A stretch of DNA of 64,000 nt from Trichoderma breve (Eukaryota; Ascomycota; Sordariomycetes; Hypocreales; Hypocreaceae), in assembly GCF_028502605.1 (NCBI RefSeq), contig NC_079233.1, positions 1,550,001 to 1,614,000 of the forward strand, written 5' to 3'. The translations under genes and the position numbers were made by a program. How positions within the stretch are numbered: the stretch's first letter is position 1; each line of letters starts with the position of its first letter. Shown here one piece after another: positions 42,697-62,986 of the stretch. A model generated the notes under the pieces. That model was given only the letters and a program-made list of their open reading frames with translations, did no database searches and had not been told where the DNA came from.

Positions 42697-43975
42697 TCAT
42701 CTCGCCTCTCTCTTCAGGCCTCTTGTACCGCCTCCTCTTGCTTGTTTCTCTGTCTCGAAAACAAGAGATTCATTTGCATCGTCTTCGTCTTCGTCTTCGT
42801 CATCTATATCGCGACGGTTTTGCTCTGCTTGCTTCCAACGTTGGATTCTTCGCTTCATCGCCTCGTCCAAGTAAAACTCATGGTCAAACCGGGCTCGAGA
42901 GAACATCTTCCTTCAATGTTAGCGCAGTTTCAAAGAGAGAGGGTAATGGATAATGAAAGCTCACCTGAGAACAGCCCGTCTGGGGGCATTGGTGCTCTCC
43001 CCGGGGCGTCAGGTAGTCCAAAATGGCAGCCTTTTCAAAAGTATGCGGGCACTTGCGACTTCTGTATGGCTCCGTCATTGGAAGGAGGGTCAAGGGGCAG
43101 TTTATGCTAATCGTTTCCCGCTGGACAGCTATGTCGTCGTCGTCATCGTCTCGGGTGCCATTCTGCCCATCACGGCTGGGGGTTGTCATATCCGGTTCGC
43201 CATTGGACAGGAACCATCGTGAGGCATCTGGCAAGGGAGGGCCATCTTCACCTGCAGCAGCTTCGTGCCACAGCTTCTTGAAGCCGGCATAGTCATTGTT
43301 GAGAGCGTACCGCTGCTGGACGTCAAGGTTCGTGTATTCGGCCCTCTTCTTGGCGCGGAGCTCACGAAACGTATCGAGGATGCTAGTCACTGGCCCCTCT
43401 TCGTCTTCATCTTGCCTCTCAGCAGCGTCTTCCTCATCACTGGTAGCTCCGTTGGCCTGTCGTCGTCGGCTTTGGGCAGCAGCTGCGCCTCTTGTCTGAG
43501 CTATTGTGTTTGTTGTGGCGGTCGTGCTGAGCTCCTCCAGGACAATAGCTCCGTCCTCCAGCTCGGCTCTTCGATCAATGGTATCTCTGAGGGCACGCTC
43601 GGATTCTCGTGTCAGTCTCTCCACCTCTTTTTCGAATTCGGGAATCTCCTCTTCCAGTCGCTCCTCTTCGGCCGTCTTGGCTGTGCCCTTCTCCTCTCGA
43701 CGCTCACGGACTGCAGCCAGTCGATCCTGGCCTCTGCGTAGGCGCTCGTTCAGATCGCTTACGCTAAGGCCAAGATTACGGATGGAGTCCTTCAGCTGGC
43801 TCTCATAAGGTGCAGCGCCGCGGTTGTTCGAAAGCTCGATCAATTCTTGCCGGGCGGTATCGGATAGAGGGAAAGACAGAGGCTCGTAATCGGGGAGAGC
43901 TGTAACTGTGGTGGTAGAGGTGCTGGTCGATGAGGCAGCAGCACGGCCACCGCGATTGAAAAGACGACGCGACAT
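42697..43975 (-). CDS. NSE2: E3 SUMO-protein ligase of the SMC5/6 complex (MIZ/SP-RING)
   Basis: Exons 43975-42965 and 42906-42697 give 406 aa; the intron is 58 nt. The SP-RING lies at about residues 291-335: INCPLTLLPMTEPYRSRKC, C-P-H-T-F, then CPQTGC. Cys293, Cys309, His311, Cys330 and Cys335 fit the MIZ pattern for one zinc ion. Upstream, about residues 80-150 are heptad-like and charged, matching the coiled coil by which NSE2/MMS21 docks on the SMC5 arm. The second exon supplies FDHEFYLDEAMKRRIQRWKQ, which extends the SP-RING, and then an acidic tail. It sumoylates SMC5/6 and other repair proteins in the nucleus. The identity is firm. Confidence 0.93.
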
Positions 43976-47672: not shown

Positions 47673-49110
47673 CTACCTCCTCAAGCGACTAGACCGGCGG
47701 CGGCCTGAGTCTTCCTCCACCACTTCCTTTTTAACAGAAGTCTCCGATTTGTTCGCCGCCGTCGCTCCCTTGCCCCGTCTCTTCTTAGCAGGTGGGCCAG
47801 CATCATCAGCTTCTTCAGGCTCTTCCTTGACTACCGCCGCCTGTTTTCGTGATCTCTTAGGGTTCTTTTCTTCGGCCACTTCATCATCTTCTTCTTCCTT
47901 CGGCTCGCTCTTCGCTGCTTTGCCCTTTGCGGGCTTGCTCTTCCCTGATTCGCTCTTCACGGGCTCTGTCTTTGCGCTGGCAACAACAGCGCCGGTCTTC
48001 TTCTGCACGCCTGGTGCGTAGCAGCTAGTCCGCCCGCCGACAGTGATGAAGGCGAGCTTTTCTCCGTTGGGGAGCTTTGTCGCTGCATCTTTGTCGCCCT
48101 TGCCCCAGCGGTAGTTGAAGAGCCAGTGATCAGGGAATTCATCCGAGTCGCCCAGTTTGTCCACGGCTGTTTGGCAGACATAACGGATGGACTCGTGCAG
48201 CTTTGCGATTTCCTTGTCATCAAAGGTATCAGAATATTGCTCCGGGTGAAGTTTGGCTTGGTAGAGAGTCTCGTCGGCGACCCAGTTTCCGATGCCACTG
48301 ATCATGGCTTGGTCTAGCAGTAGGGCCTTGATGGGGACGTGCCGGGACTTCATCTTGCCGCGCAGATATTCCTCTGTGAAGATGTCCTTGTCGACAACGG
48401 GATCAGGCCCATTCTCTACAAGGGGAGAATGTTTCCGAATGGATTCGCCAGGGCAGTTGACAAGACGCACGCGTCCGAATCTCCGGGCATCGGTGAATGC
48501 GACTTCGACGGGCTCTTTATCATCTGTGCTGAGGTGGAACTTCCAAAACTTGGGGGGCCATTGAGCAATGTCGCTCTCCTTCATTTTCTTGTAGTAGTTT
48601 GTATAAGCCGTCTTCTCGCCGTTTATGTGTACCCAGCCTGTATGCTAGACATGAGTGGTGTGAACTGAGGAGAATTGCCTGTATGAGTAGCTTACCCGTC
48701 ATGCCAAAATGCATTACCAGATGCGGTGGCTTGTCTAACGTTATCCTTTCTCAAGCGTTAACAAAAGTTCATAAAGCAGTTATTATGACAGTTTTATTTC
48801 ATCATACCAAAAATATTTTCCTTGAGAGCCCGCGGAGACAACCTGGTGCCGTTAGACATGGCACGAAATCTCAAGCTTGTGACAAGTTGGTCATACCGTT
48901 CTACCTTTCAGAGCCTCTTCGACCTCTTTTCCACTGGTTCCGACCTTGCCAAATACGCTGCTATCATCTATGGCCGCAGCATTGGCGATGGTCTTCCCCA
49001 CCAGCCTCTTGCGGAGGTAGTGTACAATACGGGCAACTACAAGGATGTTAATTATACAGTACTTTGGGCTTCTAGAGGGAAAGATACATTCCTTCAGCTA
49101 TCTCAGGCAT
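47673..49110 (-). CDS. Formamidopyrimidine-DNA glycosylase (Fpg/MutM family) with basic tail; first intron donor is GA
   Basis: Exons 49110-49092, 49036-48897, 48842-48808, 48745-48696 and 48637-47673 give 402 aa. The start MPEIAEVARIVHYL supplies the catalytic N-terminal Pro and Glu left after Met removal. Further motifs: GKVGTSGKEVEEAL, GSQGKYFWITLDKPPHLVMHFGMTGWVHI across two introns, FTDARRFGRVRL, LLLDQAMISGIGNWVADE (the helix-two-turn-helix) and FNYRWGKG. The last 110 residues are a Lys/Glu-rich, KKRR-containing tail, a likely nuclear signal. As in plants and other fungi there is no C-terminal zinc finger. It excises oxidised bases with AP-lyase activity. Frame is kept only if intron 1 (49037-49091) begins with GAATGT where GTATGT is expected; introns 2-4 are canonical. 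The gene diverges from a snoRNA host gene. Confidence 0.88.
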
Positions 49111-49453
49111 GTTGATGAATGTCGCTTGCTAAGATCAAAATGAGATGTGAGAAAAGACGCTTAAAAATCGTTTTTCACTCTGCTTCATACAATTGGAGCA
49201 ACACCTTGTGAAATCACGTCGTCAGCTACGCCTTGATCACTCTCTGAACGCGAGGCAACGCGAAATCACGTGCGTGCTTACAGAAGCAAAAATCTTAGTC
49301 GGCCCACAACCCCACCTGTAAAAGCTATGAAAACATTTTGCCGAAGCTTTTTTTCTTTTTTTCTTTCCACCATTCGCCATGTGCAGAATTTTGCCATGGC
49401 AAAAGCTCAATGTAAGTTTGTGTGCTGCTTTTGCTTGTTTGCCCTCAGTCCTC

Positions 49454-49537
49454 CTACCTGATGATACCCTAAATCCGCAAACTAGAGTCTTTGACCACTG
49501 GAGTGAAAACACCGTTTAGCACGTCAGTCTGAATTAT
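49454..49537 (+). ncRNA. C/D-box snoRNA 1 (intron 1)
   Basis: Box C TGATGA at 49459-49464, box D CTGA at 49529-49532. The guide next to box D (GCACGTCAG) complements CUGACGUGC, a conserved 25S rRNA segment as I recall it; the base at the D+5 position would be the A of CUGA. The match is only 9 nt and I see no clear terminal stem, so the target is tentative. Confidence 0.6.
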
Positions 49538-49720
49538 TATCGGACAGCTGCAATTTTTCTTGTCGCATTCAGCCAATTGAGCGCTCTTGCTAACTGTCTG
49601 GATAGAAAATGAATACCAAGTGGTATCGAGCTTGAATATCTCGCCGGCAATCTTGCGCCATCGATATGTAATAATTGGTAGGTTGCAAATTTTCTTTTTT
49701 TTTTTTTTTTTTCTGCTCGC

Positions 49721-49811
49721 GCAATATGATGATCAATTTTACAACTATATACGCTGGAAATTACCGGCTGAGGTCTCCTTTGACGATATTCTTAGGCTAT
49801 AACTGATTTGC
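49721..49811 (+). ncRNA. C/D-box snoRNA 2 (intron 2), snR77-like guide for 18S Um578
   Basis: Box C ATGATGA at 49726-49732, box D' CTGA at 49768-49771, box D CTGA at 49803-49806. GCAA before box C pairs with TTGC after box D. Upstream of D' the guide GCTGGAAATTACCG complements the 18S segment CGGUAAUUCCAGC with a single extra A. The base five before D' faces the U of CGGU, the yeast Um578 site guided by snR77. A run of 18 T (49695-49712) lies just upstream of box C. Confidence 0.7.
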
Positions 49812-49928
49812 CTCTTCAATGCTCTTTTCTTGTTGACTACAATCATGGTAGCATTGGCTGACTCGGATAAATAGAATCACTTGACAAGGTATGCCGTCTT
49901 GATACTGCATCTCCTCCATCATTCCGAT

Positions 49929-50022
49929 GTTAGATGATGAAACGGCACTGGGCTCCGATTTTTATAATGAGCAAGACACGCCATTTTGCGGCAGGCCTAG
50001 AAAACCTCGCCCACTGATTCTA
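49929..50022 (+). ncRNA. C/D-box snoRNA 3 (intron 3), target not assigned
   Basis: Box C ATGATGA at 49934-49940 and box D CTGA at 50014-50017, 84 nt overall between box ends. The guide before box D contains GAAAACCTCGCCCA, for which I recognise no rRNA or snRNA target. TAG before box C could pair with CTA after box D. Confidence 0.6.
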
Positions 50023-50181
50023 TCTCATCGATGCTTCATGTTGGATCAACCGATGCTGGATATCAAAGCTAACTCCTTGGTATCAGTGTCTAGTGATGCG
50101 CTCTGTATTACTTCTGTCGCACTACACTGCGTTTCACATTCAAGGTAAGCTTTACTAGTTTTCTGCCTCATCCCAGCCTAG

Positions 50182-50275
50182 CATCATGTGATGATTTTAG
50201 ATGACGAGTCCTATTCGGGTTTCCGATGAGGACAACAACCTTACCTACCATTCATGCAAACCCTGATTTATGATC
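50182..50275 (+). ncRNA. C/D-box snoRNA 4 (intron 4), target uncertain
   Basis: Box C GTGATGA at 50188-50194, C'-like CGATGA at 50224-50229, box D CTGA at 50263-50266. ATCAT before box C can pair with ATGAT after box D. CCATTCATGC at 50247-50257 complements GCAUGAAUGG of 25S rRNA for 10 nt, but the pairing starts six bases from box D, so the D+5 base would be mismatched; this target is weak. Confidence 0.6.
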
Positions 50276-50374
50276 CAACATTTCTCCTTGTTCTGCTGAA
50301 GCTTGCATGTAGACTTTGGCTAACATCTGAAAGTGATATTGTTAGTTACCCACATATTCCTCTTGCAACCCAGC

Positions 50375-50463
50375 TTTTTCGTGATGAGCTCGAATAAACA
50401 ATGACAAGCATATGTCTGAGCTTCACGCGACGAAGACAAAGTGTTCTATTTCTGATCTGAAAT
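50375..50463 (+). ncRNA. snR74: C/D-box snoRNA 5 (intron 5), snR74/U27 homologue guiding 18S Am28
   Basis: Box C GTGATGA at 50381-50387, box D' CTGA at 50416-50419, box D CTGA at 50452-50455 (a second CTGA at 50457-50460). The D' guide GACAAGCATATG (50403-50414) is a perfect 12-nt complement of CAUAUGCUUGUC near the 5' end of 18S rRNA. Counting five bases from D' selects the second A of CAUA, position 28 in yeast 18S, the known snR74 (human U27) methylation site. TTTC before box C can pair with GAAA after box D. Confidence 0.87.
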
Positions 50464-50608
50464 CATTCGCATCACGCTGTTGACTTGCAAGAACCTGGGC
50501 TGTTGGCTAACCGGCTCGAAAGATGACTTGCCCCAATCCGTGGTATTCTCTTCTTGCATGTGACTCTATTGGTAAGACATCCCCTTTTTTTTCTTATTCT
50601 CCTCTCGC

Positions 50609-50698
50609 ATTTACATGATGTACAAATATCACGACGGTCAACTTAGCCATATGCTCTGATGATAACGCCTGTGACAAGGCACTTTTACCCTGACAACA
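50609..50698 (+). ncRNA. C/D-box snoRNA 6 (intron 6), target not assigned
   Basis: A C-like box ATGATGT at 50614-50620, an internal CTGATGA at 50656-50662 that can serve as D'/C', and box D CTGA at 50690-50693. Position in the intron matches the other five. The guide before box D (AAGGCACTTTTACC) has no target I recognise, and box C deviates at its last base, so this is the least certain of the set. Confidence 0.5.
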
Positions 50699-50763
50699 CA
50701 CATTATCTTCATCTTTGTATCGCAGCATGCATTTTCAGCATCGTGCTAACAGATGATATCCAG

Positions 50764-52884
50764 GTATAGTAATTCTCTCAACATCATTTTGATGAGAATT
50801 TTGCATCAAGTGGTGCCGGCCACCACCGAGTCTCTACCAAGTGGTAGCTGTAACTTGTATCTTGAATCCATAAAGCATGGATTGCCGTAAAACTCGTGTT
50901 ACCATGGGACCATGGTACAGCTGGCCCTGGACCATAATGGTGAGTTCGTCAGTTGCCTTAGGATAGAGAGAATACGACTATTTTCAGCTTATAATTATAT
51001 CTTGCACTATGCCAGTTATTTCCCACTTGACCTGTGATAATGTTTTGCCTTACATGGCGTTCATAAATATGAATCATATATGCTCAGTAGCCCCTCGTCA
51101 GATAGGAGTTTTGTCCCTGGTTACTACCTACCTAGGTAATCTGTCCGAGCGAAGTCACTCCTCCTATCTAGTACCCAGCGCGGCGCGTATCCGAAGCCGT
51201 CGATAAGATCGCTGAAATGAGAAGAATGACTGACAGGGTGAAGAGAGACGGCAACGGAGTGTTGTAGGGGCCTCGTTGCTACAAGATATGGGCAACAGAT
51301 CAAATGAGAGTATCCTACCTGTGCCCAGAAGGGCTCTTCGTCAAAGATGTGGAGGCTGCGGCTATGGTGGTGGGAATATTTGACGGCGGCGTACAGATAT
51401 ATATAGGCACAAAAACAATAGTTGGTTCTCGGCAGCGCTTAAACATCCGCAGCGAGCATTCTGACTGTCCATGATAGGTCGGCAAAGCGCATGTGGCCTT
51501 CGATTCATGCATCCATCTCGTCTTCTGTAACATCGATCTAAACCAGCGCCATGGTTTTGAATTCCGGAGGGAGAACCATGGTGGCGTCGACATGTGTTGG
51601 TGTATGCCCAACTGATTTGCGTCCCGACGGCAGCACAAAAGAGCCGCAAGAGTAAAATTCCCCCCAAAATCTCTTGGCAGGTCTTACCTAGGCGCGAGAA
51701 GGCGCGAGAAGGCAGGGATCGGCTCAATTTCGAACAAGTTTGCCGATTGAGCTGATTGGGGGCTGAGTAAAAGACGTTCGATGTGACCTTGGCTCGGCAG
51801 GATCAGAGTCCTCGACAGATGTCAACCGCTAGGTCGAGAAATAGATGAGGAGGAAGACGCTACTCTGGACGCTAAGGTGCATGTTTAGCGCCGGCAGCGC
51901 GCCAGGATATTGCACGGGTTGGGCAGAGCTGTTGAGGGTATTCCCGAGTGAGGCTCTTCAGTGTTCTTGATGGGAGGTCAACTTATACAGCAATATCTTG
52001 TGCATAATTAACAATATCTTGGCAGCTTATTTCGACTCATCTTGCTGATTTTTGGGTACCAACATGACGAGATGCCTGTCTCTACTCCGTAAAAGCATGA
52101 TGATGCCCCCCCTGTTCATTGAATCCTAGCTCTGGACAGACTAGGATTCCCGGTGGACACCCCTGCTCTCAACAAAGCCTCTTAAGCGCTGCATCTGGGT
52201 GGGAATGAGCTTAGCATCTTCTCTTTGGCGTACAACCTGTACTGTACATACATCAAACTACGGGAACCTTGGGAAAAGGCGTGCGATCCTTCTCGCCAGC
52301 CCCCCTGGACTATGTCGTGTCGTCCTATTTCCTCACCTCATAGGCCGATGCCGGTTCCACGACGGCATATGTCTCAGAGCCCAGGCAGACTGCGGCATTG
52401 CGCCTCAACGATCATTGGATCGTCGCGTTCGGAATAACACAGGCTGAACGGCTAGTGGCCAGTGAGGGAGGAGCTGAGCGACAGGCATTCGAGGAGAAGG
52501 ATTCAGCTCCTTGCAGCTTTTGGTGGGTGTGCTGGCTAGACTTTCTGCAGTCTCAGGGGTGGACTTTTTTCGTTTGTAAGAGTTGAAGGAATATCCATTG
52601 AAACCAGGCTTATGCTGTTTTGAGGCGGTAATGTGGTATCGCTCAAGGCATTAATATGAGCCACACGTGAATAAGACCCTCGGCAGGCTGTCTTTCATGC
52701 TGCTTGGGTCCTACGCTACTGTATATTACATATCTGGGCTGGCGCTTCCATCCGCTGTTGCATTCACCACTTTGATCTGCGACGAGAGCTGCGTGATATG
52801 GTGCTTCCTTGACCTGTCGTTGGGAGAACTGGCAATCTTAATAGCTCTGTTGCCGCGATCGATCTCTCCATCAGGCGTCTCGCC
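50764..52884. other. Gene-free stretch downstream of the snoRNA host gene
   Basis: Right after the last snoRNA intron come three inverted repeats: AATTCT/AGAATT at 50771-50800, CTACCA-AG-TGGTAG at 50834-50847 and TACCATGG-GA-CCATGGTA at 50900-50917. The rest holds short frames without domains, a tandem GGCGCGAGAA pair near 51692-51711 and one TACTCCGTA at 52083-52091. A possible upstream exon with a signal peptide for the next gene could lie near 52697, but I could not join it. Confidence 0.45.
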
Positions 52885-57515: not shown

Positions 57516-58036
57516 TGTTGCAAAGGTATTGAGGCAAATCCAAATGTTGGGGATTGGGTTTTGGAGGAAGAGAAAACGAAGGGTAGCATTCAAGGTTATC
57601 AAAAATGAAGCTCCCAGTCCAGGGCAGCAGTCACTAGCTTCAGTGCTCTAACTGGAAGGCTGATGCTTGTCGCGACGTCACGTGCAGCTGCTTCTAAGCT
57701 TGAGGCGCCGCCAGCCGTAGCGCTGAAGCCACTGAAAGACACCCACAGAACAGTGGCCGTGGTGGGGTTCCAGGTACGTACCCGTTGTTTACAAACCACG
57801 TATTTGGACATTTCCAAACAAAAGCGCGGGGTCTAACAAGATCGAGATTCTAGCGGTCAATTGCAAGGCCATCAAAATAGCGACAGGCGAGGGCTGTGGA
57901 TCGGCACTCCAGGCTCAATCACATCGCCCATCTCTCATTTCATCCTCACGACGATTTTGCTACTTCGAATCGGGGCTTTCGCGACAGCATCTCATCCATC
58001 GCATCTGGGCTTGGGAGCGACAGCCCACTAAATATC
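57516..58036. other. Divergent promoter of the ELYS gene and SMC4
   Basis: About 0.5 kb between the two start codons. The SMC4 frame stays open back to about 57896 without an ATG (GTG only); a minus-strand frame at 57599-57817 has no family and is rejected. Confidence 0.5.
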
Positions 58037-61000
58037 ATGGCTTCTCGACCACGACGCGTCGCCCAGAGGCGCGCTATTGTCGAGTCCGACGACGAGGATG
58101 AAATCTCCATGGCATCCAACACCAGTCGCCAAATCAAGGAAGAGTCACCATTTGAAGAAGAAAAGCCGGCCGTCAAGCGAAGTAGGACTAAGCGCGGATC
58201 GGTGCCGCCTGCGGCTGCTTCTGCTCAACCACCCGCTGCCGTTCGAGTTCGTGGACGCCTAAAGAAAGCTCCCACTCCGGCTGCGTCTGAGACGGCTGAT
58301 AGCAACGACATACTTGGAGAAGATGAGATTTCTCAGGCGGACGTCACATCGACTTCGACGAGGATCCGTGGCCGACCTAGGAAGATTCCGGCTGCAGCCT
58401 CTGTTGAGTCCAGTCGGCTTGGTTCAGTGGACGTATCTCACCTAGACACCACCCTTTCTACAGGCCGTGTGACGCCGGCAAAGCGGAGGAGCATGGCATC
58501 ACGAAGCTCCATGTCCAGCAACGCATCAGTCGACGATCCTCCGACCCCAAGACCTAGGAATAAGAAAAGGTCGACGATCGTGCCAGATGATCAACCATCA
58601 GGAGGAGAAGAACGGGCTACACCAAAACCGCGAGCTGCCCCGAGATCAAGAGCCAGCACAAAATTCCGAAGCACACCGGCGCCGCAGGAGACGCCAGCCG
58701 CGACTCCCTTACCGCCGACATCGCTTGATACACCAGCAACGCAGCTTCGACAGTCCCCTCCGCCAGCAGCGCAGAGGCAAGATTCGCCTTTGGCAGACAC
58801 TGCACCGCAGTTGCGAGAGTCCACTCCTACCGCACCTCAGAAGCAGGATTCGCCTTTGGCAGACATTACATCAAATATCAATGCGGCCAATCTGCTACCG
58901 CCGCCATCAGCTGTCAAGCCCAACAAGCCGTCAGAGTCCCCCACGAAGTCGTCGATGGAACCCATTATGGACAAGCCGTTGGATATCGTCCTCAAGTCGC
59001 GAACAATGACGATTCCCGTTGTTGAGGACACAACACCAAAGCCTCGCATTGTCATCACGCATTTGATTCTCAACAATTTCAAGAGTTATGCTGGCCGGCA
59101 GGATGTAGGACCATTTCACGCGTCGTTCTCATCGGTCGTTGGGCCTAACGGCTCTGGAAAATCCAACGTCATCGACTCACTCCTTTTCGTGTTTGGTTTC
59201 CGAGCTAGCAAGATGCGACAAGGCAAGATTTCGGCTTTGATTCATAACTCTGCGCAGTATCCCAACCTCGAGTTCTGTGAGGTTGCTGTTCACTTCCAAG
59301 AGGTTCTAGACCAGCCTGGCGGTGGCCACGTTGTTATCCCAGACTCAGAGCTCATCATCTCCCGCAAGGCCTTCCGCAACAACTCTAGCAAATACTTCAT
59401 CAACAACAAAGCGTCAGACTTTACAACCGTCACTACACTGCTGCGAGATCGTGGTGTAGACCTTGACCACAAGCGTTTTCTAATCCTCCAGGGAGAAGTT
59501 GAGTCGATTGCTCAGATGAAACCTAAAGCTGCAAACGAGCATGAAGACGGATTGCTAGAATATCTTGAAGACATTATCGGAACCTCCAAATATAAAACAC
59601 CGATAGAAGAGTCCGCCGCTGAGGTTGAAACACTCAACGAGGTTTGCGTAGAAAAAAATTCCCGTGTTCAGCATGTCGAGAAAGAGAAGAACAGTCTGGA
59701 AGAGAAGAAAGACAAGGCACTTGCATTTATCCGAGATGAGAATGAGCTCGCTATGAAGCAGTCCGCTTTGTATCAACTCTATATCCACGAATGCAACGAC
59801 AACATGGCGGTCACGGAGGAGGCGATCAATCAGATGCAGGCCGAGCTTGATGTTGAACTGGAGAAACACGAAGGGAGCCAACAGCTTATCAAGGAACTCG
59901 AAGGCAAATACGAAATGGGCAAGAGGGAGTTTGAGATTCAAGAGAAGCAAACTCAGGTCTTGTCAAAAGAATTGGCAAAATTCGAGCAAGAACGTGTCAA
60001 GTTTGACGAGAAAAAGAAATTCTTGGAAGACAAGAGAAAGAAGCTCGAGAAAACCATTCGAAACGCCGAAAGGAATGCGGCCGAAGCTGATGAGACAATT
60101 GAGCAATGCGGCGCCGATATCGAAACTCGATCACAAGAGATTACGGCGATGGAGACGATGGCAAAGGAAGAGGAAGCCGAACTTACCAACATTCGAGAGA
60201 GCATGAAGGGAAAGACAAAAGTCTTTTCGGACCAAATTGCAGTCAAACAAAAGTCTCTCGAGCCGTGGATTGAGAAGATCAATCAGAAGCAATCTTCCAT
60301 TGCTGTTGCTGAAAGCGAGATGAACATTCTCAAAGAAAAAGCAAATGCTGGTGCCGTTGCCCTGCAGGAGCTCGAGGCCAAGATATCGTCCATCGAAGAA
60401 GGCAAGGTCGCCAAGCAGAAAGAGCTCAAGGCCTGCCAGACTGAAAAGGCAAAATTGACAAAGGAGGCCGAGAAGATGAAGTCTGAACTTGATATTCTCG
60501 CAGAACAAGAGCCAAAGATAAGGGCTAAGATCTCCAGCGCGCGCCAAAAGGCAGACGAGGCTCGCTCAAGTTTGGCCAATACCCAGACAAGGGGCAACGT
60601 CTTATCTGCCCTAATGAGGATGAAAGAATCAGGTCGTATTGATGGATTCCACGGTCGTCTGGGCAATCTCGGTACCATTGACAAGAAATACGATGTTGCC
60701 GTTTCCACCGCGTGTCCTTCACTGGATAACTTTGTCACTGAAACAGTCGAGGCCGGCCAGCAGTGCATCGAGCACCTACGCAAGAATAAGCTCGGCCGTG
60801 GCAACTTTATCTGTCTAGACAAACTGCGCCAGCGAGACTTATCACCGATTCAAACACCGGAAAATGCACCGCGATTGTTTGATCTCATCACAGCGAAGGC
60901 AGACAAATTCCTACCGGCTTTCTATCACGCTATGCAAGATACGCTCGTTGCCAATGATCTCGCGCAGGCAAATCGCATCGCTTATGGTGCCAGGAGATGG

Positions 61001-62986
61001 CGAGTTGTGACGCTGGATGGTGAATTAATTGACAAGTCCGGTACGATGTCTGGAGGTGGCACAACTGTAAAGAGGGGCCTGATGTCTTCCAAACTTGTTG
61101 CCGATACTACAAAGGAGCAAGTCGCCAAGCTCGAAGAGGATCGTGACCAATGGGAAGCCAAGTTTCAAGAGTTCCAAGAGTATCAGCGAGAGTGCGAGAA
61201 TACACTGAAAGAGATCAACCGCAAGATCCCACAGTTGGACACCAAAATGCAAAAGCTTGGGTTAGAAATGGAGAGCGCCACGCGAAACTTGGCTGATATT
61301 GAGCGACGCATCAAGGAAGTCGGCAAGGAGTACCAACCATCTACCGAAGACACCAAGCGTATTTCAACACTGCAAAAGGAAGTAGCCAAGCTTAACGCGG
61401 AAGTGGACAAGCTCCGTGGCGAGACATCCAGCCTCGAAGAAGAAATCAAAGCTCTTCAGAACAAGATCATGGAGCTCGGTGGAGAGAGATTGCGAGCTCA
61501 ACGAGCCAAGGTCGATTCTATCAAGGAAGAGATTGCGTCTCACCACGAGGAAGTGTCCAAGGCTGAAGTTCAGAAAGCCAAGGCTGAGAAGCAAAAGATC
61601 AAGCTTGAAAAGGACTACGCAAAAGCAACTAAAGAGCGAGATGCGGCAGTGCATGACCTCCAACAGCTCCAGGACGGCCTTGACAATCAAGGAGAGAAGG
61701 CTGAAGAGCTGAAAGCTCGCGTCGAAGAAGCCGAGGAAGGCCTGGCGTCGAAGAAGAAAGATCTGAAAAAGCTCAAGGGGGAGTTAGACGAGAAGATTGC
61801 GGAGCTAAACGAGAGCCGTGCAGTGGAGATTGAGATGCGGAACAAGCTTGAGGAGAACCACAAGGTGCTGACTGATAACCAAAAACGACTTCGATACTGG
61901 GAGGACAAGCTATCCAAGCTTACACTTCAGGATATCGATGATCTCATCGGCGGCTCGGGTTCCAGAGTCATCAAGACTGAAGAAGCAGAGGCGCCTGAGA
62001 TGCCTGATGCTCCGGCAAATGGCGATGAGGATGGCGATGTTGAGATGACTGACGATGATGTTGAAATGTCCGATGTTGAAATCGACGACGCCGCCTCTGA
62101 CAAAACTGAACATGCCCCAAGCGCGCCCGCTCGCCAACCTGGCCAACTCCCAAGGTATACACCGGACGAATTGGCCGGTATGAGCAAGGAGACTCTGAAG
62201 GGCGAAATCGCGGCCCTGGAGGAGAAGACGCAGAATGTCAATGTCGACCTTGGCGTATTGGCTGAATACCGTCGTCGTGTAGAAGAGCATGTATCTCGTG
62301 CATCTGATTTGCAGACGGCAATTGAGCAGCGCGATGCCGCCAAGAAGAGGTGTGACGATTTGCGTCGCTTGCGACTTGAAGGGTTCATGGAGGGCTTCAG
62401 CGCCATTTCCTTACGTCTCAAGGAAATGTACCAAATGATCACCATGGGAGGTAACGCAGAACTCGAGCTGGTCGACAGCTTGGATCCGTTCAGCGAAGGA
62501 ATCCTCTTCAGTGTGATGCCGCCAAAGAAGAGTTGGAAGAATATCGGCAACCTTTCGGGTGGCGAGAAGACCCTCAGTAGTCTTGCATTGGTGTTTGCTT
62601 TGCATCACTACAAACCGACGCCGCTATATGTCATGGACGAGATTGATGCTGCTTTGGACTTCCGAAACGTAAGTATGGCTCTGCAGCCATTTCCAAGCCC
62701 CTTTCTCGTACTTGGTGACGATAAGACCCTTCTTGCTAACACACGCTACCAGGTCTCGATCGTGGCGAACTACATCAAGGAGCGCACAAAGAACGCACAG
62801 TTCATCGTTATCTCGCTACGAAACAACATGTTTGAGCTTGCAGCGCGACTCGTCGGCGTGTACAAGGTCAACCATATGACAAAGAGCGTAACAATAGAGA
62901 ACAAAGACTTCATCGACAGGCCTCTGACGCTGCAGCAACAGCAGAGGACACTTGGCGGGAACACAGCCACGGTGACGATAAGGTAG
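58037..62986 (+). CDS. SMC4: Condensin subunit SMC4
   Basis: Exons 58037-62668 and 62753-62986 give 1621 aa; the intron of 84 nt (GTAAGT, GCTAAC, CAG) has no stop in frame. The first 330 residues are a Ser/Pro/Arg-rich tail with acidic patches. Then come LILNNFKSYAGRQDVGPF, Walker A GPNGSGKSN at about 369, a coiled coil, the hinge (about 860-1010, GFHGRLGNLGTIDKKYDVAVSTACP), a second coiled coil interrupted by an acidic stretch (about 1320-1360), the ABC signature LSGGEKTLSS at about 1506, and Walker B PLYVMDEIDAALD at about 1530. ISALIHNSAQYPNL and the KSYAG/CEVAVHFQE segments are SMC4-specific. It pairs with SMC2 to compact chromosomes. The start was set at the ATG in good context (ATCATGG). 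Confidence 0.96.
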   Translation: MASRPRRVAQRRAIVESDDEDEISMASNTSRQIKEESPFEEEKPAVKRSRTKRGSVPPAAASAQPPAAVRVRGRLKKAPTPAASETADSNDILGEDEISQADVTSTSTRIRGRPRKIPAAASVESSRLGSVDVSHLDTTLSTGRVTPAKRRSMASRSSMSSNASVDDPPTPRPRNKKRSTIVPDDQPSGGEERATPKPRAAPRSRASTKFRSTPAPQETPAATPLPPTSLDTPATQLRQSPPPAAQRQDSPLADTAPQLRESTPTAPQKQDSPLADITSNINAANLLPPPSAVKPNKPSESPTKSSMEPIMDKPLDIVLKSRTMTIPVVEDTTPKPRIVITHLILNNFKSYAGRQDVGPFHASFSSVVGPNGSGKSNVIDSLLFVFGFRASKMRQGKISALIHNSAQYPNLEFCEVAVHFQEVLDQPGGGHVVIPDSELIISRKAFRNNSSKYFINNKASDFTTVTTLLRDRGVDLDHKRFLILQGEVESIAQMKPKAANEHEDGLLEYLEDIIGTSKYKTPIEESAAEVETLNEVCVEKNSRVQHVEKEKNSLEEKKDKALAFIRDENELAMKQSALYQLYIHECNDNMAVTEEAINQMQAELDVELEKHEGSQQLIKELEGKYEMGKREFEIQEKQTQVLSKELAKFEQERVKFDEKKKFLEDKRKKLEKTIRNAERNAAEADETIEQCGADIETRSQEITAMETMAKEEEAELTNIRESMKGKTKVFSDQIAVKQKSLEPWIEKINQKQSSIAVAESEMNILKEKANAGAVALQELEAKISSIEEGKVAKQKELKACQTEKAKLTKEAEKMKSELDILAEQEPKIRAKISSARQKADEARSSLANTQTRGNVLSALMRMKESGRIDGFHGRLGNLGTIDKKYDVAVSTACPSLDNFVTETVEAGQQCIEHLRKNKLGRGNFICLDKLRQRDLSPIQTPENAPRLFDLITAKADKFLPAFYHAMQDTLVANDLAQANRIAYGARRWRVVTLDGELIDKSGTMSGGGTTVKRGLMSSKLVADTTKEQVAKLEEDRDQWEAKFQEFQEYQRECENTLKEINRKIPQLDTKMQKLGLEMESATRNLADIERRIKEVGKEYQPSTEDTKRISTLQKEVAKLNAEVDKLRGETSSLEEEIKALQNKIMELGGERLRAQRAKVDSIKEEIASHHEEVSKAEVQKAKAEKQKIKLEKDYAKATKERDAAVHDLQQLQDGLDNQGEKAEELKARVEEAEEGLASKKKDLKKLKGELDEKIAELNESRAVEIEMRNKLEENHKVLTDNQKRLRYWEDKLSKLTLQDIDDLIGGSGSRVIKTEEAEAPEMPDAPANGDEDGDVEMTDDDVEMSDVEIDDAASDKTEHAPSAPARQPGQLPRYTPDELAGMSKETLKGEIAALEEKTQNVNVDLGVLAEYRRRVEEHVSRASDLQTAIEQRDAAKKRCDDLRRLRLEGFMEGFSAISLRLKEMYQMITMGGNAELELVDSLDPFSEGILFSVMPPKKSWKNIGNLSGGEKTLSSLALVFALHHYKPTPLYVMDEIDAALDFRNVSMALQPFPSPFLVLGDDKTLLANTRYQVSIVANYIKERTKNAQFIVISLRNNMFELAARLVGVYKVNHMTKSVTIENKDFIDRPLTLQQQQRTLGGNTATVTIR

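Follow-up and report, generated by a model that had tools for sequence, protein, structure and literature searches.

What kind of gene lies at 49400..50770 of a 64,000-nucleotide (nt) stretch of Trichoderma breve DNA (GCF_028502605.1, NC_079233.1 1,550,001–1,614,000, forward strand; hereafter the window), and is it new? A sequence-only reading of the window had placed there a spliced non-coding host gene for C/D-box small nucleolar RNAs (snoRNAs), and this is still the best reading, given Rfam families in a known order, no ATG-initiated open reading frame (ORF) longer than 32 codons in the predicted spliced transcript and a Neurospora homologue. We put at roughly 0.95 the probability that this locus represents, in Trichoderma, the orthologue of snoRNA gene cluster I of fungi, in the intronic, UHG-like form of filamentous ascomycetes, with a predicted transcript and predicted splicing. 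The snoRNA order, snR78/72-77-76-75-74-73, is collinear with that cluster.

The covariance-model search that the sequence-only reading had proposed as a check bore out the presence of C/D snoRNAs, with three Rfam families over gathering and two at E about 0.002. At the gathering threshold, the whole window gives three C/D snoRNA matches, all within the introns of this locus. Homologues of snR77, snR76 and snR75 lie adjacent and in order in introns 2–4, all over gathering, and snR74 then snR73 continue the order in introns 5 and 6. The fused snR78/72 comes first, and its two guides occupy the halves where they are expected, D' and D. The six snoRNAs are as follows.

49453–49537, plus strand: C/D snoRNA snR78/72, double guide (compare N. 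crassa CD5), assigned by boxes and guides; ends approximate
49722–49808, plus strand: C/D snoRNA Afu_300 (snR77 homologue), RF01509, 68.7 bits (gathering 40)
49930–50019, plus strand: C/D snoRNA Afu_513 (snR76 homologue), RF01514, 81.8 bits (gathering 48)
50186–50268, plus strand: C/D snoRNA snR75, RF01185, 67.6 bits (gathering 40)
50376–50465, plus strand: C/D snoRNA snR74/U27, assigned by SNORD27 match and guide; ends approximate
50609–50695, plus strand: C/D snoRNA snR73/U35, box C ATGATGT, assigned by RF01207 match and guide

A relaxed-threshold Rfam scan of 48800–51400 returned 8 matches. Among these, intron 2 matches RF01178 snoR77Y (27.1 bits, below gathering 52) and intron 3 matches RF01209 snR76 (40.4 bits, below gathering 55); because these sub-threshold matches overlap the Afu models, we equate Afu_300 with snR77 and Afu_513 with snR76. 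A DdR13 match in intron 3 is at chance level. The matches to the two Aspergillus fumigatus models are full-length, although the Afu_300 homologue here has 1 nt inserted and 5 nt deleted, and the Afu_513 homologue has a shorter middle. Intron 5 matches SNORD27 at 50376–50436 (34.0 bits, E 0.002, gathering 52), and the N. crassa snoRNA table gives U27/SNORD27 as snR74 (PMC2780460). Its box D may be either of two CTGA motifs, at 50452 or 50457. Intron 6 matches RF01207 snR73 with 35.4 bits (E 0.0018), just short of gathering 37.

The guides point to sites that we take to be 25S U2421, A876, C2197, G2288 and C2959 and 18S U578 and A28 in yeast numbering. In intron 1, the D' guide forms a 12-base-pair (bp) perfect run with the 25S U2421 segment and the D guide a 9-bp perfect run with the A876 segment. 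Perfect runs of 9 bp (snR76, 25S C2197), 12 bp (snR75, 25S G2288), 12 bp (snR74, 18S A28) and 11 bp (snR73, 25S C2959) are found in introns 3–6. Boxes D and D' were accepted at three or more of the four letters of CTGA, which gave CTGA twice, TTGA, CCGA and CTTA; the last three are degenerate D' boxes. By script, the fifth base from box D or D' is of the expected type (U, A, C, A, C) in five guides when paired with the presumed yeast segments. The D' box of snR75 is too degenerate for this rule; if CCTA at 50210 is taken as the box, it is a G that pairs with the fifth base.

All six adjacent introns of 182–198 nt that the sequence-only reading described were found at the same place. By splice signals they extend over 49412–50763 on the plus strand, measure 194, 197, 198, 189, 182 and 192 nt, and leave predicted inner exons of 72, 14, 58, 7 and 49 nt. 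Each snoRNA lies in its own predicted spliceosomal intron, with donor, branch and acceptor signals in all six. The claim of one box C/box D pair per intron at a fixed distance from donor and branch also holds: every intron has one pair, with box C 41–49 nt past the donor, the branch adenine 50–61 nt downstream of the end of box D, and the acceptor another 10–14 nt on. From the start of box C to the end of box D is 74–83 nt (counting the second CTGA in intron 5). Box C is TGATGA in five introns and TGATGT in one, box D is CTGA throughout, the branch site is CTAAC in five and CTGAC in one, and the acceptors of introns 1–6 are TAG, TAG, CAG, AAG, AAG and CAG. Searched against its own genome, the region gives a single match, itself. 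The predicted structure is the following.

49330–49411, plus strand: exon 1, predicted from the donor at 49412; start arbitrary
49412–49605, plus strand: intron 1, 194 nt, GTAAGT...CTAAC...TAG, from splice signals (as for all introns here)
49606–49677, plus strand: predicted exon 2, 72 nt
49678–49874, plus strand: intron 2, 197 nt, GTAGGT...CTGAC...TAG
49875–49888, plus strand: predicted exon 3, 14 nt
49889–50086, plus strand: intron 3, 198 nt, GTATGC...CTAAC...CAG
50087–50144, plus strand: predicted exon 4, 58 nt
50145–50333, plus strand: intron 4, 189 nt, GTAAGC...CTAAC...AAG; alternative TAG acceptor 50343–50345
50334–50340, plus strand: candidate micro-exon 5, 7 nt, TGATATT
50341–50522, plus strand: intron 5, 182 nt, GTTAGT...CTAAC...AAG
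50523–50571, plus strand: predicted exon 6, 49 nt
50572–50763, plus strand: intron 6, 192 nt, GTAAGA...CTAAC...CAG
50764–50900, plus strand: predicted exon 7; end arbitrary

Intron 2 also contains a run of 18 T (49695–49712) between the donor and box C.

Several points weigh against assigning the locus to cluster I in this form. The guides were compared with seven short yeast rRNA segments of presumed sequence and site numbering, in place of the rRNA of T. breve. Of 3,000 shuffled snoRNAs compared with all seven segments, 181 had a run of at least 9 with one or another of them, 8 of at least 11 and 2 of at least 12; at that frequency, lone 9-bp runs are weak. Both snR74 and snR73 score under Rfam gathering. 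In intron 1, the Rfam matches (six listed, 14–16 bits, E about 5–7) are at chance level only; one of them is to snR78 and covers the guide CAAACUAGAGU (E 7), another is to snoZ122 and covers GCACGUCAGUCUGA (E 4.9), and the putative snR78/72 name draws on guide identity together with prior expectation. The acceptors of introns 4 and 5 are AAG instead of CAG or TAG. Finally, the snR77 guide is interrupted: 8 bp (AATTACCG, 49759–49766) and 6–7 bp (GCTGGA(A), 49753–49759) are separated by one surplus A, and the longest run in this snoRNA (9) falls outside the known guide. The snoR77Y consensus lacks the surplus A of the D' guide (49753–49767), and the Afu_300 consensus has it. The duplex with 18S rRNA, by its presumed letters, would bulge there, and there is a small possibility that the interrupted guide leaves 18S U578 weakly methylated.

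Could box and splice motifs have come together by chance in intergenic DNA? Short motifs are common in any DNA, and the donor–box C–box D–branch–acceptor pattern used for the count was composed post hoc, after the region had been read. This pattern finds these six units on the plus strand of the window and zero on the minus strand. Dinucleotide shuffling of the region (1,371 bases) 1,000 times gave no unit in 998 cases and one unit in 2, against six in the real sequence; when the whole window was shuffled 30 times and both strands were scanned, 24 shuffles had none, 5 had one and 1 had two. A consensus intron scan of the window, too loose to confirm the sequence-only claim that most introns here measure 50–100 nt, returned 16 matches of 65–271 nt, two of them as long as introns 1 and 2. 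Rfam is a test independent of the post hoc pattern, and it gives E values of 3.1e-15, 6.2e-11 and 1.4e-11 for three snoRNAs. The chance reading is already refuted by the Rfam matches and the shuffles, and its remaining probability is negligible. Real snoRNAs might instead be hosted by the introns of a protein-coding gene, as intronic snoRNAs of N. crassa are described in coding as well as non-coding hosts (PMC2780460). Here the longest ATG-initiated ORFs of the predicted spliced transcript (49330–50950, arbitrary ends) have 32, 25, 20 and 19 codons, and the longest in the unspliced sequence (49300–50950) has 73 codons and runs through snR76. We rejected a coding host on these ORF lengths as highly improbable, and the host gene is best read as non-coding. 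Slightly less remote, yet still very unlikely, is a scheme in which an endonuclease cuts the snoRNAs out of a polycistronic precursor that is never spliced, and in which the splice signals are remnants. In S. cerevisiae, Rnt1p cuts the snoRNAs of the same cluster out of a single transcript (PMC5033589), and the two AAG acceptors and the 7-nt exon 5 would fit such decay; against it, donor, branch and acceptor are retained at near-constant spacing in all six units, and Luo et al. report these snoRNAs as intronic in Euascomycetes (PMC3596301).

For the intronic cluster I host, by analogy with the described systems, we infer transcription, splicing, debranching and methylation in T. breve. One RNA polymerase II transcript would be spliced at six introns. 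The excised introns would be debranched and trimmed back to the ribonucleoprotein assembled on boxes C and D, yielding six guide snoRNAs, and the joined exons would be a by-product coding for nothing long. The snoRNAs would then direct 2'-O-methylation of 18S and 26S rRNA. In Fusarium, loss of Dbr1 lowers five intronic snoRNAs (PMC9606315), none of which belongs to cluster I.

Cluster I loci of this arrangement are described in other fungi. Clusters of this kind are present in nearly all fungi analysed by Luo et al.; in Euascomycetes the cluster snoRNAs are described as all intronic, a recombined snR78 and snR72 as common to every Euascomycete, and the spliced cluster RNAs as poorly conserved, without long ORFs and with some inner exons lost (PMC3596301). 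In N. crassa, the six homologues, listed as intronic on chromosome VI, are CD5 (snR72+snR78), CD24 (snR77), CD12 (snR76), CD7 (snR75), CD21 (snR74) and CD31 (snR73); the cluster hosts are termed UHG-like, and their spliced products were confirmed by reverse-transcription PCR and sequencing (PMC2780460). In alternatively spliced forms from that cluster I, either exon 2 alone or exon 2 together with exon 3 is missing (PMC2780460). The T. breve locus resembles the N. crassa and Euascomycete loci in its homologous snoRNA set, intronic placement, short ORFs only and double-guide snR78/72. Its distance from donor to snoRNA start, 35–44 nt, is at or slightly under the 41–60 nt usual in N. crassa (PMC2780460). 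The guide order is that of the S. cerevisiae snR78-snR77-snR76-snR75-snR74-snR73-snR72 cluster, which is unspliced with a separate snR72, whereas here the snoRNAs are intronic and the snR72 guide is joined to snR78. The transcripts of vertebrate UHG and gas5, a comparison made in PMC2780460, are likewise spliced and non-coding, and each intron carries a single C/D snoRNA, but the snoRNA content differs; the likeness is one of working, and descent is not claimed.

A separate snR72 after intron 6, at the TGATGA of 50790, was considered and rejected, the snR72 guide being already in intron 1. An Rfam search of 50750–51000 at E up to 10 gave no snR72; its single match, with an E value of 1.8, was to RT-18 and lay on the minus strand. 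Outside the window, a pattern of box C plus the snR75 guide was present at 12 loci, 7 in viral_contigs and 5 in genome_contigs. An Rfam scan of all 12 returned 131 matches, each to a CRISPR repeat in one locus (L009), and no snoRNA; the loci were set aside as chance matches. A presumed 35-base 25S core sequence had no match in viral_contigs. Contig L016 (G000:C9, 2,500 bases) presumably opens with sequence like that toward the 3' end of a large-subunit rRNA gene.

The boundary between introns 4 and 5 departs from the rest of the locus. With AAG at 50331–50333 as the intron 4 acceptor, 7 nt are left before intron 5. Beyond the intron 4 branch there is one other AG as far as the following donor: it belongs to the TAG at 50343–50345, inside that donor, GTTAGT (50341–50346). 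Intron 5 has a single AG, in AAG, before the donor of intron 6. The short exon, the AAG acceptors and the TAG within a donor may point to alternative or order-dependent splicing. Nested or order-dependent splicing at this boundary is a doubtful but conceivable feature of the Trichoderma cluster I; if it occurred, the release of both snR75 and snR74 would hinge on the splicing order. Nested and recursive splicing is described for cluster II in the Candida parapsilosis group (PMC5033589), and splicing of this sort for clusters III and exon loss in Euascomycetes generally, which may include cluster I (PMC3596301). Since clusters like this one are already known to lose exons and to be spliced in a set order, we regard the boundary as a variation in detail and not as a novel type of arrangement. 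Splicing order could be tested, on a small scale, with the micro-exon.

Elsewhere in the window, the nearest ORF of at least 180 amino acids upstream of the host gene encodes a protein with an H2TH domain of formamidopyrimidine-DNA glycosylases (47673–48584, minus strand). An Nse2/Mms21-like SUMO ligase with a zf-Nse domain (Pfam E 1.2e-22) is encoded at 42884–43975 on the minus strand; its top match, among the best 120 of 216, is from Trichoderma pleuroticola (96% identity over 93% of the query). About 14 kb from this gene is that of a structural maintenance of chromosomes (SMC) protein with hinge (57896–62986, plus strand; SMC_N E 5.6e-66).

The novelty implied by the sequence-only reading is not supported, because the same cluster has been described in Neurospora and other Euascomycetes and is already well known as yeast snR78-72. 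Its description across Euascomycetes means that the locus is expected in a filamentous ascomycete. The species list of PMC3596301 includes N. crassa and two Gibberella species and has no Trichoderma, and literature searches for snoRNA with Trichoderma and for fungal snoRNA clusters gave, among the titles listed, none on cluster I in Trichoderma. The find is real but ordinary and adds little new biology. It checks that the cluster I snoRNA order is kept in a Trichoderma, and it is a clean example for annotating non-coding host genes that protein-based pipelines would be expected to miss.

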